A stretch of DNA of 64,000 nt from Candidatus Tectimicrobiota bacterium (GTDB lineage: Bacteria > JACPUC01). The translations under genes were made by a program, and so were the position numbers. Below are positions 50,928-61,071 of this stretch, in pieces (positions within the stretch are counted from its first letter, which is position 1; every line of letters starts with the position of its first letter). The notes beneath the pieces were generated by a model, which did not search any database, was not told the origin of the DNA, and worked only from the letters and a program-made list of their open reading frames with translations. The stretch spans positions 1 to 64,000 of the forward strand of contig JACPUC010000030.1 in NCBI GenBank assembly GCA_016192455.1. The letters run 5' to 3'.

Positions 50928-51956
50928 TTAGCCAGCCTCGGCGTTCTGCGTGGTTTGTTGAGACGGCACTCGCAGGTCGTGGAGGAGACGTTCAAAGCTC
51001 TCGTTGTATTCGCTCGGCACCTGCCACTTCCGGAAGTCGCCGACGTGGCGGCTGTTTTTCCTGTCTTCCCAGATGTCGTGTACCCATTGCGGTGGAGATT
51101 TCTCCAACGCAGTATCCAGACGGATTGGGAACACCACTTTCTTATCGCGCCGTTTCTCCTCCTTCCGGGCCAGTTCCACCTCCTCTTTCACGCGAACGCT
51201 CTTAATTGAGTTACGCGAAAGGATGAGGAGGAGTTTATCATGCTCCTTGATCGCCTTATCGATCATTTCAGGGGGCAGCTCGCCAATCTTCACGTCCTCC
51301 GAGTATTTCCAGCAAGGAACCCCTTTGTCCCACAAATCATCGTAAAGTTTCTTCGCAAACTTCTCATCTTTGTTGGAGTGGCTGATGAAGCAGGAAGAAT
51401 ACTTCTTCTCTAATAGTTTTGATAGGTTCTCGATGAGATCTTTCGGCAGGCGGCAGCCGCGCAGGAAGGCAGGCGGAAGAAGGCCGGAAATTTGCAGGGT
51501 GTGGAAGTCGATGCTACTGCGGCCAAGGTGTACACAGGTTTCCAACCCTCTGGCATGAGATAGATTAGTGTCCCCAAAAATAGTCAGGTAAAGCTTGGCT
51601 CCCTCCAGGTCAGCGTCCGTAAGGTTGGCCCATGCTAGATTTGCCCCTTGCAGGTCCACGCCGCAGAGGTTTGCGCTAGTTAAGTTCGCCACCCTCAGAT
51701 CTGCTGAGCCTAGGTTTGCCTTGCATAGCTTTGCGCCCGGGAGGTCCGCTCCTTCGAGGCGGGCTACTTGGAGGTTTACTCCGCAAAGTTTCGCATCGTG
51801 AAGCTTTGCGTGCGAAAAATTCACCCAGCGGAGATCTCTACTACTTCTTAGGTCTGCCCCGCTGAGGTCTGGTCGAATTCCAGGTTCCTGTTCCCTCCAC
51901 TTATTCCAAACCTTCACGCCTTGATTGAGGATAGCGAGGTGTTCCGGGTTCGCCAT
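50928..51956 (-). CDS. Pentapeptide-repeat protein with C-terminal TIR domain
   Basis: A(N/D)LxxA(N/D)L repeats at aa ~30-115 (LEGADLPGAKLCKANLGSADLRVANLTSANLCGVDLQGANL); TIR: SSCFISHSNKDEKFAKKLYDDLWDKGVPCWKYSEDVKIGELPPEMIDKAIKEHDKLLLILSRNSI. Confidence 0.92.
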   Translation of the reverse strand: MANPEHLAILNQGVKVWNKWREQEPGIRPDLSGADLRSSRDLRWVNFSHAKLHDAKLCGVNLQVARLEGADLPGAKLCKANLGSADLRVANLTSANLCGVDLQGANLAWANLTDADLEGAKLYLTIFGDTNLSHARGLETCVHLGRSSIDFHTLQISGLLPPAFLRGCRLPKDLIENLSKLLEKKYSSCFISHSNKDEKFAKKLYDDLWDKGVPCWKYSEDVKIGELPPEMIDKAIKEHDKLLLILSRNSIKSVRVKEEVELARKEEKRRDKKVVFPIRLDTALEKSPPQWVHDIWEDRKNSRHVGDFRKWQVPSEYNESFERLLHDLRVPSQQTTQNAEAG

Positions 51957-52106
51957 ATCCGGCTCCGTGGCTGGAATCACGCCCCCCGCGAGTGCGCCTG
52001 CGCACTCGCGTAAGCAGGGGGTGTGGGGGATCAATGATCCCCCACGACGTCTCCCCCCAATAAAGACCTTCCCCCTCGCGCACGGAAGCCTGGCGTGCCG
52101 CCGTGG

Positions 52107-54506: not shown

Positions 54507-54811
54507 GGAACTCCTCCTTTCAACCAGGGGAAGGATGCGCCGCGCCGGCGTGGCGCCCTATGGGTGGCTGCTTGCTCCCTTTTCTTGCACCTTCGGCGAC
54601 TTGTCAAGGACCTTCCTGTGCCGACCTGGCTCGCCGCGGCCTGCCTGCGTGGGCCCGGCTGTCGGCGCTGCGACGGCGGTCAGGACGTTCCCTTGACAGT
54701 CTCTGGGAGGGTGCAGCACTATACCCGTTTTAGACGCTGCCGGGGTTGCCGCGCGCCTGAAGGAGGGCGCGGCGCCGGGCGGCGCATGTCGGACCTGCGT
54801 GAGGGGGAACG

Positions 54812-56905
54812 ATGTATCGCTCCATCTATGTACCCGTGGATGCCTCGGAGCATGCGCGTCGCGCCGCTGACCTTGCCGTGGAGCTGGCGCGCCGCTGCGG
54901 GGCGGCTCTGACCGGCAGCCACGTCGTCGAGGACCCACTCGCCGCGACGCGCCTGGCGCTCCTGCGCAGGACGCCGGCGGGCGCCCCGTTCTCCGCGGGA
55001 CCCCACGTGGTGGAGGGCGAAACCTCCCATGGGGAGTCGGCATTGCGGCCATCGCGGGCCGCGGCGCCGCCAGGGGACGGCGCGTCGCCCGCCGTGGCGG
55101 AAGCCTTCGCCTCGCTGGCGCAGCGCAGCGCCGCCGCCGGCCTGACGTTCGAGCGCAAGACCCTGCGCGGCAGCCATCACCGGCTCCTCGCGCGCGACAT
55201 CGAAGCCGGCGCGTACGATCTGGTGATCCTCGGCGCCCACGGCGGCGGGGCCGTCAAGGAGAGCCTCATCGGCAGCGTCTGCGAGCGCGTCGTGCGGCGA
55301 GTCAGCACGGATACGCTGATCGTCCGCGCGACGGCGCCGCTGCGGGATCAACTGCGGGGCGGCATCGTGGTGGGGATTGACGGCAGCCCCCAGAGCATGG
55401 CCGGGCTGCTCACCGCGGTCGAGTTGGGGCGGCTCTTCGAGACGCCGGTGGAAGCCGTCGCGGTCTACGACCCCTATCTCCACTACACGATGTTCAACGG
55501 CATCGTGGGGGTGCTCAACGAGCAGGCCTCGCGGGTCTTCCGCTTCAAGGAGCAGGAGCAGCTCCACGAAGAGATCATCGACACGGGTCTGGCGAAAATC
55601 TACCAGTCGCACCTGGAGATCGCCCAACAGATCGCCCGCGAGCAGGGCGCCTCCCTCAAGATCACCCTCCTGGACGGCAAGGCATTCGAAAAGATGCTCC
55701 TCTACCTGCGGCGCCAGCAGCCCTGGCTGGTTGTCCTGGGACGCTACGGCGTGCATCGCGACGGGGAGAGCGCCGAGCTGGGAAGCAACACCGAGAACCT
55801 GCTGCGCTCGGCCCCCTGCAACGTGCTGCTGACGGCCCGCACGTTCTACCCTCGCATCGACCTGAAGGCCGAGGAGAGCATCGCCTGGACCGAGGAGGCC
55901 CAGGAGCGCATGAAGCGGGTGCCGCCGTTGGTGACGGGGATCGCGCGCACGGCCATTCTGCGCTATGCCATCGAGCGGGGACACTCGGTGGTGACGTCGA
56001 AGGTCATCGATGAAGCGATGCACATCTTCATGCCGGAGGGCACGGCGCGCGCCATGGGGGATGCCGCCAAGAAGCTGGCCGCGGCCACGGTCGAGGGCGA
56101 TGCGCGGATGCGCAGCATCTGCACCATCTGCGGCTATGCCGCCAAGGAGGAGCAGCCGCGCAAGTGCCCGGTGTGCGGCGCCGGCGCTGAGTCGTTCCAG
56201 CACATCGACCGCCAGGTCGTGCAGGCGATCATCGACAGCGAGGGAGGGGTGCAGGTCGAGGAGACCTTCGACGGCGTGGCGCTGAAGTGGACCGTCGAAG
56301 CGCGGGCGCTGCTGCGCGGCATCGAGGATACCTACCAACGCCGGCGCGCCAAGGCGCGCATTGAAAAGCGCGCCCGCAGTAGGAAGCTGAGCGCCATTAC
56401 GGCGGACTTCGCCCGCCCCATCATCGAGGAAGCCAGCGGCGTCGAGCTGGGCGGGGCGCCTCCCATGCAGGCGCCGGTAACGGCCGCCCCAGGCTCTGCG
56501 GACGCCGCCGCGGAGGGGGCCGAGGCTGATGCGGCGCGCAGCCCCTTCGTGTGGCTCGATGAGGCGGTGCAGAGGCTGCGGCGCGTGCCGGCGGGCTTCA
56601 TGCGGGAGATGACGCGCTCGCGGATTGAGGCCCTCGCCGCCGAGCGCGGGGCAACGACCATCACCCTGCGCCTTGCCGAGGACGCCATCGGCCAGGCGCG
56701 CCAGGTGATGGACTCGATGGTGGGGGCCTACATGAGCGAGGAGGGCCGCAGCACGCTCCGCCGCGCCGCCGCGTCGCCGCAGGTCGGGGTCGGCGATGAT
56801 GCGCAGCCGGGGACGATCAAGAGCGCCACCCGCAGCCGCGACGTGCCACGGCTCAATGAGGTGACGTTGGCCCCCTACCCGAAGCCGAACGAGGCAACGA
56901 ACTGA
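54812..56905 (+). CDS. Multidomain UspA-like / PCP_red-like / rubredoxin-like protein
   Basis: MYRSIYVPVDASEHARRAADLAVELARR (Usp); GIVVGIDGSPQSMAGLL (second Usp); WTEEAQERMKRVPPLVTGIARTAILRYAIERGHSVVTSKVIDEAM and WLDEAVQRLRRVPAGFMREMTRSRIEALAAERGATTITLRLAEDAI (PCP_red-like); CTICGYAAKEEQPRKCPVCGAGAESF (rubredoxin-like). Confidence 0.85.
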   Translation: MYRSIYVPVDASEHARRAADLAVELARRCGAALTGSHVVEDPLAATRLALLRRTPAGAPFSAGPHVVEGETSHGESALRPSRAAAPPGDGASPAVAEAFASLAQRSAAAGLTFERKTLRGSHHRLLARDIEAGAYDLVILGAHGGGAVKESLIGSVCERVVRRVSTDTLIVRATAPLRDQLRGGIVVGIDGSPQSMAGLLTAVELGRLFETPVEAVAVYDPYLHYTMFNGIVGVLNEQASRVFRFKEQEQLHEEIIDTGLAKIYQSHLEIAQQIAREQGASLKITLLDGKAFEKMLLYLRRQQPWLVVLGRYGVHRDGESAELGSNTENLLRSAPCNVLLTARTFYPRIDLKAEESIAWTEEAQERMKRVPPLVTGIARTAILRYAIERGHSVVTSKVIDEAMHIFMPEGTARAMGDAAKKLAAATVEGDARMRSICTICGYAAKEEQPRKCPVCGAGAESFQHIDRQVVQAIIDSEGGVQVEETFDGVALKWTVEARALLRGIEDTYQRRRAKARIEKRARSRKLSAITADFARPIIEEASGVELGGAPPMQAPVTAAPGSADAAAEGAEADAARSPFVWLDEAVQRLRRVPAGFMREMTRSRIEALAAERGATTITLRLAEDAIGQARQVMDSMVGAYMSEEGRSTLRRAAASPQVGVGDDAQPGTIKSATRSRDVPRLNEVTLAPYPKPNEATN

Positions 56906-57236
56906 CCTCACCCCGAAGCGTGCCGAGCGCGAAAGCTCGGAACGGCTCGCCATCCTCGGCGGCGCAGTTGGGTGCGGCAGGCTCCCATCGAGTTGGCCCT
57001 TGGCATCTTTGCAGGGAACTCCACGCGCGGGAGCCTCTCTTACTGAATCGAGGCGAACCCGTGGGTGAGTGTCGGCTCAGGCTGGCTTTACCTTTGCGGC
57101 TGGGAAAGGCAGCGCCGGGCCGCCCGTGCCTCCGGGGGCGCTCCGCAGCCTTTCCAACGCAAGACATGCCGCGGTCTTAACGAGCGATGAGCGCGGCAAC
57201 ACGGACCCGAGGCGGATGCCGAGGGGCAACGTCGAA

Positions 57237-57748
57237 CCTAGTGTTGCGTCTCAGAAGTTCGCTCACACCGTTGCGGCGCTGCTCGCTGCATTGGCAAGGG
57301 GCTTGTGAGGAACCCATGCTCCCCCACACTCCCATCCCATAGGGGTGATTCGCGAACCGCCCCTCCAAGCCGGGGCGCGCGAGGAGACACGGTTCCTTCC
57401 CAGACTGAGGTTGCGGGCGGGGCAAGCCCCGCCCCTACGATCAGCCCCCGCGGGCGCAGTTGGGGAGAAGGTCCCCTCTCAGGAGTAGGTGATGGAACGT
57501 AGGGGACACGATACTGGCGTTGCGTCTCCTAAGTTCGTTAACTACCTTAGCAACATTGTTGCCAAGGCGAGGCGGTTTTTGTGCGAGGAAGCCGCGCCTC
57601 ATCCCTCAGCGATGGGCGCGCCCCGATTGCGCTAGCCGCTGCGCAACGCACGGGGAATGGGGCTGTGGCGAAGCAAGGGTCCCCCACAAAAAAATGAAGC
57701 CTGCAACGCATCAACTTTGCCAGGGAACTTTTGAGACGTAACACGAGG
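57237..57748. mobile_element. Candidate non-autonomous element (MITE-like) with 24-bp imperfect terminal inverted repeats
   Basis: cctagtgttgcgtctcagaagttc (57237-57260) versus reverse complement of 57725-57748 cctcgtgttacgtctcaaaagttc: 21/24 identical; further internal copy at 57513-57536; no coding capacity. Confidence 0.55.
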
Positions 57749-57790
57749 TGTGATGAACCTGATCTTGCACCAAGAGGGAGGAACGACTCA

Positions 57791-58534
57791 ATGAGCATCT
57801 GTGGAAGAAACCTGAAGGGGTGGGTCTGGGGGCTCTTCCTTGCCCTGCTCGTGCTCGGCCTGACGATGAGCGCCTCAGCGTACCAGGCTGAGGAGGTGAA
57901 GAATGGCGGCACGATCACCGGCAAGATCCTCTTCAAAGGGACGCCGCCCCCGCGCGAAACGTTGAAGGCCTCGAAGGATACCGAAGTGTGCGGCACGGAG
58001 GTGCCTTCCGAGGCGCTCGTTGTGGGCGAGAACAAGGGCATCCAATGGGCCATTGTCAGCCTTGTCGATATCAAGAAGGGCAAGGGCGTCGACAAGAAAG
58101 CAACGGTTGAGCTCGATCAGAAAGGCTGCCACTATGTTCCCCACGTCGTGAAGGTGCCGGCGGGCGGAACTTTGACCGTGCTGAACTCCGACGGCATCCT
58201 GCATAACATCCACACGTACAGCAAAGTGAACAAGTCGGTGAACAAGGCTCAACCGAAGTTCCGCAAGAAGCTTCTCATCGACAACACCTTCAAGGATCCT
58301 GAGCTGGTCAGTGTGAAGTGCGACGCGCACGCCTGGATGAGCGGTTACATCCTCGTCGAGGAGCATCCGTACCATGCCGTCACGAAGGCGGATGGGAGCT
58401 TCTCGCTTTCTGACGTCCCTCCCGGCACGTATAAGGTGGAGGTGTGGCAGGAGAAGCTCGGCAAAGTCACCAAAGAGGTGAAAGTGGAGGCTGGAAAAGC
58501 AACGACCCTGGATGTCGAGCTTGCCGCCATGTAG
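57791..58534 (+). CDS. Secreted cupredoxin-like/carboxypeptidase-regulatory-like protein
   Basis: Signal peptide; GGTITGKILFKGTPPPRE; VPAGGTLTVLNSDGILHNIHTYS; VKCDAHAWMSGYILVEEHPYHAVTKADGSFSLSDVPPGTYKVEVW. Confidence 0.82.
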   Translation: MSICGRNLKGWVWGLFLALLVLGLTMSASAYQAEEVKNGGTITGKILFKGTPPPRETLKASKDTEVCGTEVPSEALVVGENKGIQWAIVSLVDIKKGKGVDKKATVELDQKGCHYVPHVVKVPAGGTLTVLNSDGILHNIHTYSKVNKSVNKAQPKFRKKLLIDNTFKDPELVSVKCDAHAWMSGYILVEEHPYHAVTKADGSFSLSDVPPGTYKVEVWQEKLGKVTKEVKVEAGKATTLDVELAAM

Positions 58535-60426: not shown

Positions 60427-61071
60427 TCACGAGCCTACCGGCAGCATCATCACGCGGGCAAGGCGTTCCAGTGCCTTGTTCTGAATCTGTCGGATGCGCT
60501 CACGGGTAAGGTCAAATTCCTGACCGATCTCTTCCAGGGTTCGCTGTGGCCGGTTCTGGATGCCGAGCCGCTGCATGAGGATCTCCCGCTCGCGGTAGGG
60601 GAGCTTCTGCAGCCACTGGAACGCCATGGGGTCGTCTCCGCAGAGGGCCTCCACCACTTCAGGATGCCTCTCCGGCAGGCTCGGTCCTTCATGTCCAAAC
60701 TTCGGCCGGCGGGGAATCTTATACTCCCGCATGCGGGCCAGGATGGAAGACTTGCTGTACCCCATGTTGTCGGCGATCTGGGCGGCCGTCAGGCGCTTCT
60801 CGAGGTACTCGCGCCGCAGCGTCTCGGCATCAATAGCGGCCCGATGCGGGCGGCCCTTGCCGTTGATGTCCACTTCCTTGAAAAAGCGCTCTGGGTCGAT
60901 GTGAAAGGCCGCGAGGATCTTGTGGATGCTCTCGTTGCTTGGCACACGACGACCGCGCTCGAAGTAGTAGATCGCCGTCGGACTTAAGCCGGCAAGCTCG
61001 GCGAACTTCTTCCGCGACAGACCGAGAACACTTCGTATCTCGAAAATCTTTTCGTGTATCGTCATCTTCAT
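60427..61071 (-). CDS. XRE-family HTH / sigma-70 region 4 fusion regulator
   Basis: N-term EIRSVLGLSRKKFAELAGLSPTAIYYFERGRRVPSNESIHKILAAF (XRE); middle EKRLTAAQIADNMGYSKSSILARMREY (HTH-like); C-term LPYREREILMQRLGIQNRPQRTLEEIGQEFDLTRERIRQIQNKALERLAR (sigma-70 r4). Confidence 0.9.
   Translation of the reverse strand: MKMTIHEKIFEIRSVLGLSRKKFAELAGLSPTAIYYFERGRRVPSNESIHKILAAFHIDPERFFKEVDINGKGRPHRAAIDAETLRREYLEKRLTAAQIADNMGYSKSSILARMREYKIPRRPKFGHEGPSLPERHPEVVEALCGDDPMAFQWLQKLPYREREILMQRLGIQNRPQRTLEEIGQEFDLTRERIRQIQNKALERLARVMMLPVGS

Follow-up and report, generated by a model that had tools for sequence, protein, structure and literature searches.

What might a bacterium do with a protein that joins universal stress protein (Usp) domains to PCP_red, a domain named after protochlorophyllide reductase, and to a rubredoxin-like Cys4 knuckle? 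Such a protein is encoded in the window analysed here, which is the first 64,000 nucleotides of contig JACPUC010000030.1 from Candidatus Tectimicrobiota bacterium (GenBank assembly GCA_016192455.1). Genes in this GC-rich genome were called with a codon-scored caller, and the open reading frame given by a first-pass annotation was recovered exactly (Table 1). An antisense frame of 744 aa (54719-56953, minus strand) was rejected as a high-GC coding artefact, as the family matches and the homologs lie in the plus frame. A chance reading frame was also rejected, because 25 homologs with 38-54% identity are aligned over the architecture and the four cysteines of the knuckle are invariant. The taxonomic spread, a point raised in the first-pass annotation, is wide. 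Homologs are found in Rhodothermales, Calditrichota, Marinimicrobia, 'Deltaproteobacteria', and Rhodospirillaceae; the one from Rokubacteria is a C-terminal fragment. Further homologs come from genomes of several other families. As judged from the alignment, the gene encodes a real protein, and its architecture is conserved across many unrelated bacteria.

Table 1. Coordinates of the fusion gene, its modules, and a possible partner gene in the window
Feature	Position	Strand	Basis or remark
Usp-Usp-PCP_red-rubredoxin-PCP_red-PCP_red protein, 697 aa	54812..56905	+	ORF, Pfam, 26-sequence alignment, AlphaFold2/Foldseek
Usp domain 1, aa 1-172, GxxGx9GS nucleotide motif (G141, G144, G154, S155)	54812..55327	+	Pfam PF00582; glycines invariant
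Usp 1 insert, degenerated, aa 39-99; 6/32 homolog-conserved columns kept	54926..55108	+	alignment; model mostly disordered there
Usp domain 2, about aa 185-342; G310, G313, G324 invariant	55364..55837	+	Pfam, alignment, Foldseek
Usp 2 helical insert, intact, aa 220-268 (H224, H252, H267, Y225, D257); 28/29 conserved columns	55469..55615	+	alignment
PCP_red 1, aa 359-402	55886..56017	+	Pfam profile, 47.5 bits
Rubredoxin-like Cys4 knuckle, aa 437-462; C437, C440, C452, C455 invariant	56120..56197	+	Pfam RUBY_RBDX 3.1e-8; alignment
PCP_red 2, aa ~493-533	56288..56410	+	24.1 bits alone; Pfam three stretches; AlphaFold2
PCP_red 3, aa ~581-625	56552..56686	+	Pfam profile, 44.9 bits
Plastocyanin/CarboxypepD_reg-like protein, possible partner	57731..58534	+	downstream of fusion gene; 38% identity to L012 copy

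All three kinds of domain that had been read from the letters are supported by Pfam profiles. Usp (PF00582) matches two stretches (4.4e-37, 128 bits against a cut-off of 24), RUBY_RBDX matches the knuckle (3.1e-8, 33.3 bits against 26.5), and PCP_red (PF08369) matches three stretches (5.3e-25, 87.6 bits against 32.5). The first-pass annotation thus had the identity of PCP_red right and its number wrong: it counted two copies, having overlooked the middle one. This second module, which sits after the knuckle, scores under the cut-off by itself and is modelled by AlphaFold2 with the same helix-helix-strand-helix pattern. In the AlphaFold2 model as a whole both Usp domains take the Usp fold and the three PCP_red modules are helical; confidence is low in a linker (545-572) and in the tail (654-697). 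Among the 26 aligned sequences the four cysteines and the glycine motifs of both Usp domains are invariant. The GxxGx9G(S/T) motif of the second Usp domain has one extra residue in the window protein, and the third PCP_red module is absent from two sequences (L121 and L122). The knuckle presumably binds iron or zinc, two metals that sequence does not tell apart. The protein has no equivalog match in NCBIfam, and no output domain of a DNA-binding, kinase, or cyclase kind was found in it.

The Usp part is of the tandem type. Foldseek matched the model to tandem Usp structures, the best being 3ab8_A (TTHA0350, ATP-bound; E 3.8e-14, TM (target) 0.74). Like the fusion protein, the tandem-type universal stress proteins (TTHA0350, Rv2623, and UspE/YdaA) have one Usp domain following another, with the glycines of GxxGx9G(S/T), and the fold predicted for the fusion protein is theirs (Foldseek E 4e-14 to 3e-12). 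These solved relatives have about 235-311 residues in their structures and lack PCP_red and rubredoxin modules. New in comparison with them are the tie of the fusion protein to a bd-like complex, described below, and its long conserved inserts. In the family both Usp domains are interrupted by a long helical insert in which histidines are conserved (H44 and H85; H224, H252, and H267). The first insert has largely decayed in the window protein and the second is kept (Table 1). Residues 54-90 of insert 1 are largely disordered in its AlphaFold2 model, where a canonical homolog has high-confidence helices. The same genome encodes a two-Usp paralog (contig C2, L046:1435-2442, minus strand) with 31 of the 32 conserved columns of insert 1 and four of the 29 of insert 2. 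This reciprocal loss suggests that the two proteins work as a pair. On the simplest reading each insert would be of importance, and the task would be shared between the window protein and its paralog, possibly in a hetero-oligomer.

PCP_red has been known as a part of BchB/ChlB, one of the subunits of the protochlorophyllide-reducing enzyme (PMC7242693). While BchB/ChlB (dark-operative protochlorophyllide reductase subunit B) has one C-terminal PCP_red domain, the fusion protein has three and is missing the nitrogenase-like catalytic domain. It scores 58.6 bits on the NCBIfam BchB model, against an equivalog cut-off of 509, and its best stretch (aa 352-403, E 5e-16) covers only the C-terminal positions 479-530 of 535. 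None of the other PCP_red matches in the window's genome (frames of 173, 331, and 700 aa) looks like BchB. A role in phototrophy, or a BchB fragment, was rejected, since there is no nitrogenase-like part in the protein and no BchB in the genome. The genome also encodes a 319-aa protein with three PCP_red domains (L025:7189-8148, plus strand), which has a homolog in genome G005 (L053:1273-2181). Elsewhere the order PCP_red-rubredoxin-PCP_red-PCP_red recurs in two proteins from two genomes (L108:3182-4609 and L109:2195-3625, both minus strand); they have no Usp, and the cassette is joined in them to a Haem_oxygenas_2 domain ('iron-containing redox enzyme'; 8e-31 and 5e-32). Because this haem-oxygenase-like catalytic partner stands where the fusion protein has Usp, the cassette looks like a recombinable unit. 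In an 807-aa homolog (L020:62-2485) PCP_red matches five stretches, and a second cysteine-rich knuckle lies among these. Several C-terminal PCP_red domains also follow radical SAM/SPASM domains in three proteins encoded beside Usp-PCP_red proteins (L154:1495-3312, with three Pfam stretches; L149:922-2907; L151:615-2459). The first-pass annotation could name no described protein with the domain order of the fusion. In the open-access papers searched, likewise, neither this architecture nor any PCP_red protein outside chlorophyll synthesis or protochlorophyllide reductase was described. The domains are known, but their arrangement and association are new.

In Rhodothermales and Calditrichota the fusion gene is part of an operon with the order bd-like subunit, diheme cytochrome c, membrane cytochrome c, cytochrome c with EB_dh (a heme-b domain), radical SAM protein with PCP_red, a protein of ~115 aa (p112), fusion protein, Mrp-like ATPase, and a CxxC protein of ~160 aa with PCP_red. 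At several of these loci cytochrome oxidase and plastocyanin-like genes are nearby. In G005 the parts of the operon are present but scattered. In the window's genome the parts are spread over three contigs: C29 (L086) has the genes for the bd-like subunit and three cytochromes, C30 (L025) those for the Mrp-like, CxxC-PCP, and three-PCP_red proteins, and C27 the fusion gene. A radical SAM-PCP_red gene was not found in this genome, which is 88% complete. A local operon within the window was rejected: upstream, the Peripla_BP_6 gene is transcribed divergently, and about 0.8 kb separates the fusion gene from the next gene downstream. Promoter and terminator scans gave nothing above shuffled sequences. 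Homologs of the downstream plastocyanin/CarboxypepD_reg-like protein adjoin cytochrome oxidase genes in syntenic clusters.

The link to the bd-like subunit is also seen across genomes. Genomes were searched with the PCP-Rbx-PCP-PCP part of the fusion protein (aa 350-640, E <= 1e-12) and with the bd-like subunit of the window's own genome (E <= 1e-60). In a broad sample of 386 genomes, 15 have both proteins, 363 have neither, eight have the bd-like subunit only, and none has the fusion protein only (Fisher p 1.3e-21; the genomes are not independent, and 10 families are represented). Within the phylum of G039 both are found in 64 genomes and neither in 15, with two fusion-only and four bd-only cases. 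Restricted to genomes with a completeness of 90% or more and no more than 5% contamination, this phylum gives 49 with both, seven with neither, and no discordant genome. The association is weak in the phylum of G005 (both 52, bd-only 14, fusion-only five, neither six; p 0.03), where any match over the cut-off was counted as fusion, five partial forms included. The bd-like subunit was not found in two genomes with the fusion protein (G042 and G051) or in one with the two-Usp form only (G032); these assemblies are incomplete or of unknown quality. Several of the eight bd-like genomes that lack the full fusion have shorter Usp-PCP_red forms. In G369 and G235 these are encoded beside a radical SAM gene, and in G233 the bd-like, radical SAM-PCP, and Usp-PCP genes are side by side. 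In 42 genomes examined for the domain itself, PCP_red is present in all 15 fusion-positive and six of the eight bd-only genomes, and radical SAM-PCP_red in 14 and six, respectively; both are absent from all 19 controls, which were the first listed negatives and not a random draw. Of 14 named reference genomes, one has PCP_red, that of Synechococcus elongatus. The similarities of fusion and bd-like proteins are correlated over 18 genomes (rho 0.70; 0 of 2000 permutations as high), which could also come from shared ancestry alone. Overall the linkage of the fusion protein to the bd-like subunit is strong.

The co-occurring subunit resembles CydA. That of the window's genome (L086:7648-9477) matches Cyt_bd_oxida_I at 8e-13 (48.1 bits against 26.2), and its H73, E164, and H240 are invariant among 24 relatives. 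In the alignment to the bd oxidase subunit of the solved structure 5doq, H73 and E164 fall on the heme-ligand positions of CydA and H240 is one residue off. Like the OR-N oxidases of Nitrospira and Nitrospina (PMC3578206, PMC10839748, PMC12342949), the subunit is CydA-like and accompanied by cytochromes c. The bd-like OR-N proteins are described as putative cytochrome c-oxidising O2 reductases (PMC3578206, PMC10839748, PMC12342949). In term searches, PCP_red was not mentioned in these three papers, nor were Usp and radical SAM in PMC3578206 and PMC10839748.

Among profiles, the partner radical SAM protein has its best matches to NirJ2 (1e-101) and AhbD (5e-92), and stays under both equivalog cut-offs (340.6 and 309 bits, respectively, against 500). 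NirJ, NirJ2, and AhbD, of heme d1 and alternative heme biosynthesis, are the families most similar to it; it differs from them in having one to several C-terminal PCP_red domains added. Radical SAM members of the NirJ/AhbD group act on heme precursors (PMC7242693, PMC10548856). The ATPase of the operon belongs to the NUBPL/Mrp family (5e-70), and its PDB matches include iron-sulfur cluster carriers. Since the fusion gene tracks one respiratory complex and its partners are of the tetrapyrrole type (radical SAM) and the iron-sulfur carrier type, the group resembles a set of proteins for assembly or maturation.

The reading we prefer, with a probability of roughly 55%, is that the fusion protein is an accessory protein of the cytosol that serves the cytochrome c-linked bd-like complex specifically, most likely in its maturation. 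The target would be composed of the CydA-like subunit, diheme and monoheme cytochromes c, and the cytochrome c with the EB_dh heme-b domain. The maturation set would include the fusion protein, the NirJ2/AhbD-like radical SAM protein with PCP_red, the Mrp-like ATPase, and the small CxxC-PCP_red protein. As PCP_red is known from BchB/ChlB and the partner radical SAM protein falls in the NirJ/AhbD group, this set would ready or deliver a cofactor, most likely a tetrapyrrole. The fusion protein itself would probably handle or mature the tetrapyrrole or metal cofactor of the bd-like oxidase. Its tandem Usp part would bind ATP, and the two His-containing helical inserts could form a ligand site. 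The PCP_red modules may be recognition or docking modules common to the set, and the knuckle might pass electrons to a modifying enzyme or position that enzyme. The domain architecture and its conservation, the synteny and co-occurrence with the bd-like subunit, and the reciprocal loss of inserts in the paralog pair are observations; ATP binding, the knuckle metal, tetrapyrrole handling, and cofactor maturation are what we infer.

A more far-reaching form of this reading is advanced only tentatively. The Mrp-like ATPase and the PCP_red proteins (the fusion protein, the radical SAM-PCP protein, and the small CxxC-PCP protein) would together be a hitherto undescribed pathway, either for making the modified heme (e.g., a chlorin or a cofactor like heme d) of cytochrome c-linked bd-like oxidases or for inserting it, and PCP_red would be a general tetrapyrrole-handling module common to bd-like respiration and chlorophyll synthesis.

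Neither co-occurrence nor synteny can tell maturation and regulation apart. The fusion protein could be a dedicated regulator that senses ATP together with redox state or O2 (or NO) through Usp and the knuckle, and tunes the expression or activity of the bd-like chain. The Usp fold with its nucleotide motif, the invariant cysteines, and the co-occurrence with an oxygen-type oxidase agree with such a role. We nevertheless consider it unlikely: an output domain was not found in the protein, its gene lies between the radical SAM and Mrp-like genes, and PCP_red is also present in the radical SAM protein, the small CxxC protein, and the iron-containing redox enzyme, which points to biosynthesis or assembly. 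The oxygen- or redox-responsive stress sensor proposed in the first-pass annotation was drawn from domain names only and is not favoured by the context, in which the gene tracks a bd-like CydA and cytochromes c over 10 families, fusion-only genomes being absent from the sample of 386. The protein is more likely an accessory of the bd-like oxidase than a general redox stress sensor, although it may have a sensing role within the assembly or maturation set.

More doubtful than the dedicated regulator is a function in iron-sulfur rather than heme maturation, in which the protein and the Mrp-like P-loop protein would supply the radical SAM protein, or some other protein of the set, with clusters. 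The adjacent NUBPL/Mrp family ATPase and the Cys4 knuckle fit this, but the knuckle is of the rubredoxin and not the scaffold type, PCP_red is known from a tetrapyrrole-binding enzyme, and the bd-like and EB_dh/cytochrome c subunits are heme proteins in which an Fe-S site is not evident. Usp proteins are common and often close to respiratory genes, but an ordinary stress protein, associated with the bd-like subunit through shared ancestry or the lifestyle of the carrier genomes, is very improbable in view of operon linkage in several phyla, fusion-only genomes at 0/386, near-perfect concordance in the phylum of G039, and a strongly conserved domain order.

In the literature, the bd-like oxidases found in nitrite oxidisers and in many uncultured bacteria figure as putative terminal oxidases of unproven composition and function (PMC10839748, PMC12342949). 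The conserved accessory set found with these oxidases supplies concrete genes, open to deletion and purification, for asking which cofactors the oxidases carry and how they are built. The set also suggests that a domain whose only name so far comes from protochlorophyllide reductase has a role beyond photosynthesis, and that one branch of the universal stress protein fold has a specific function. If the cofactor hypothesis were proved, the system would be more than known domains newly arranged.

Two other genes of the window, both on the minus strand, were noted. The gene at 60427-61071 encodes a 214-aa protein with an HTH_3 domain and sigma-70 region 4. The gene at 50928-52034, with a low codon score for this genome, encodes a pentapeptide-repeat protein whose C-terminal domain is of the TIR type (TIR_2, 6.5e-21), possibly a signalling or defence protein.
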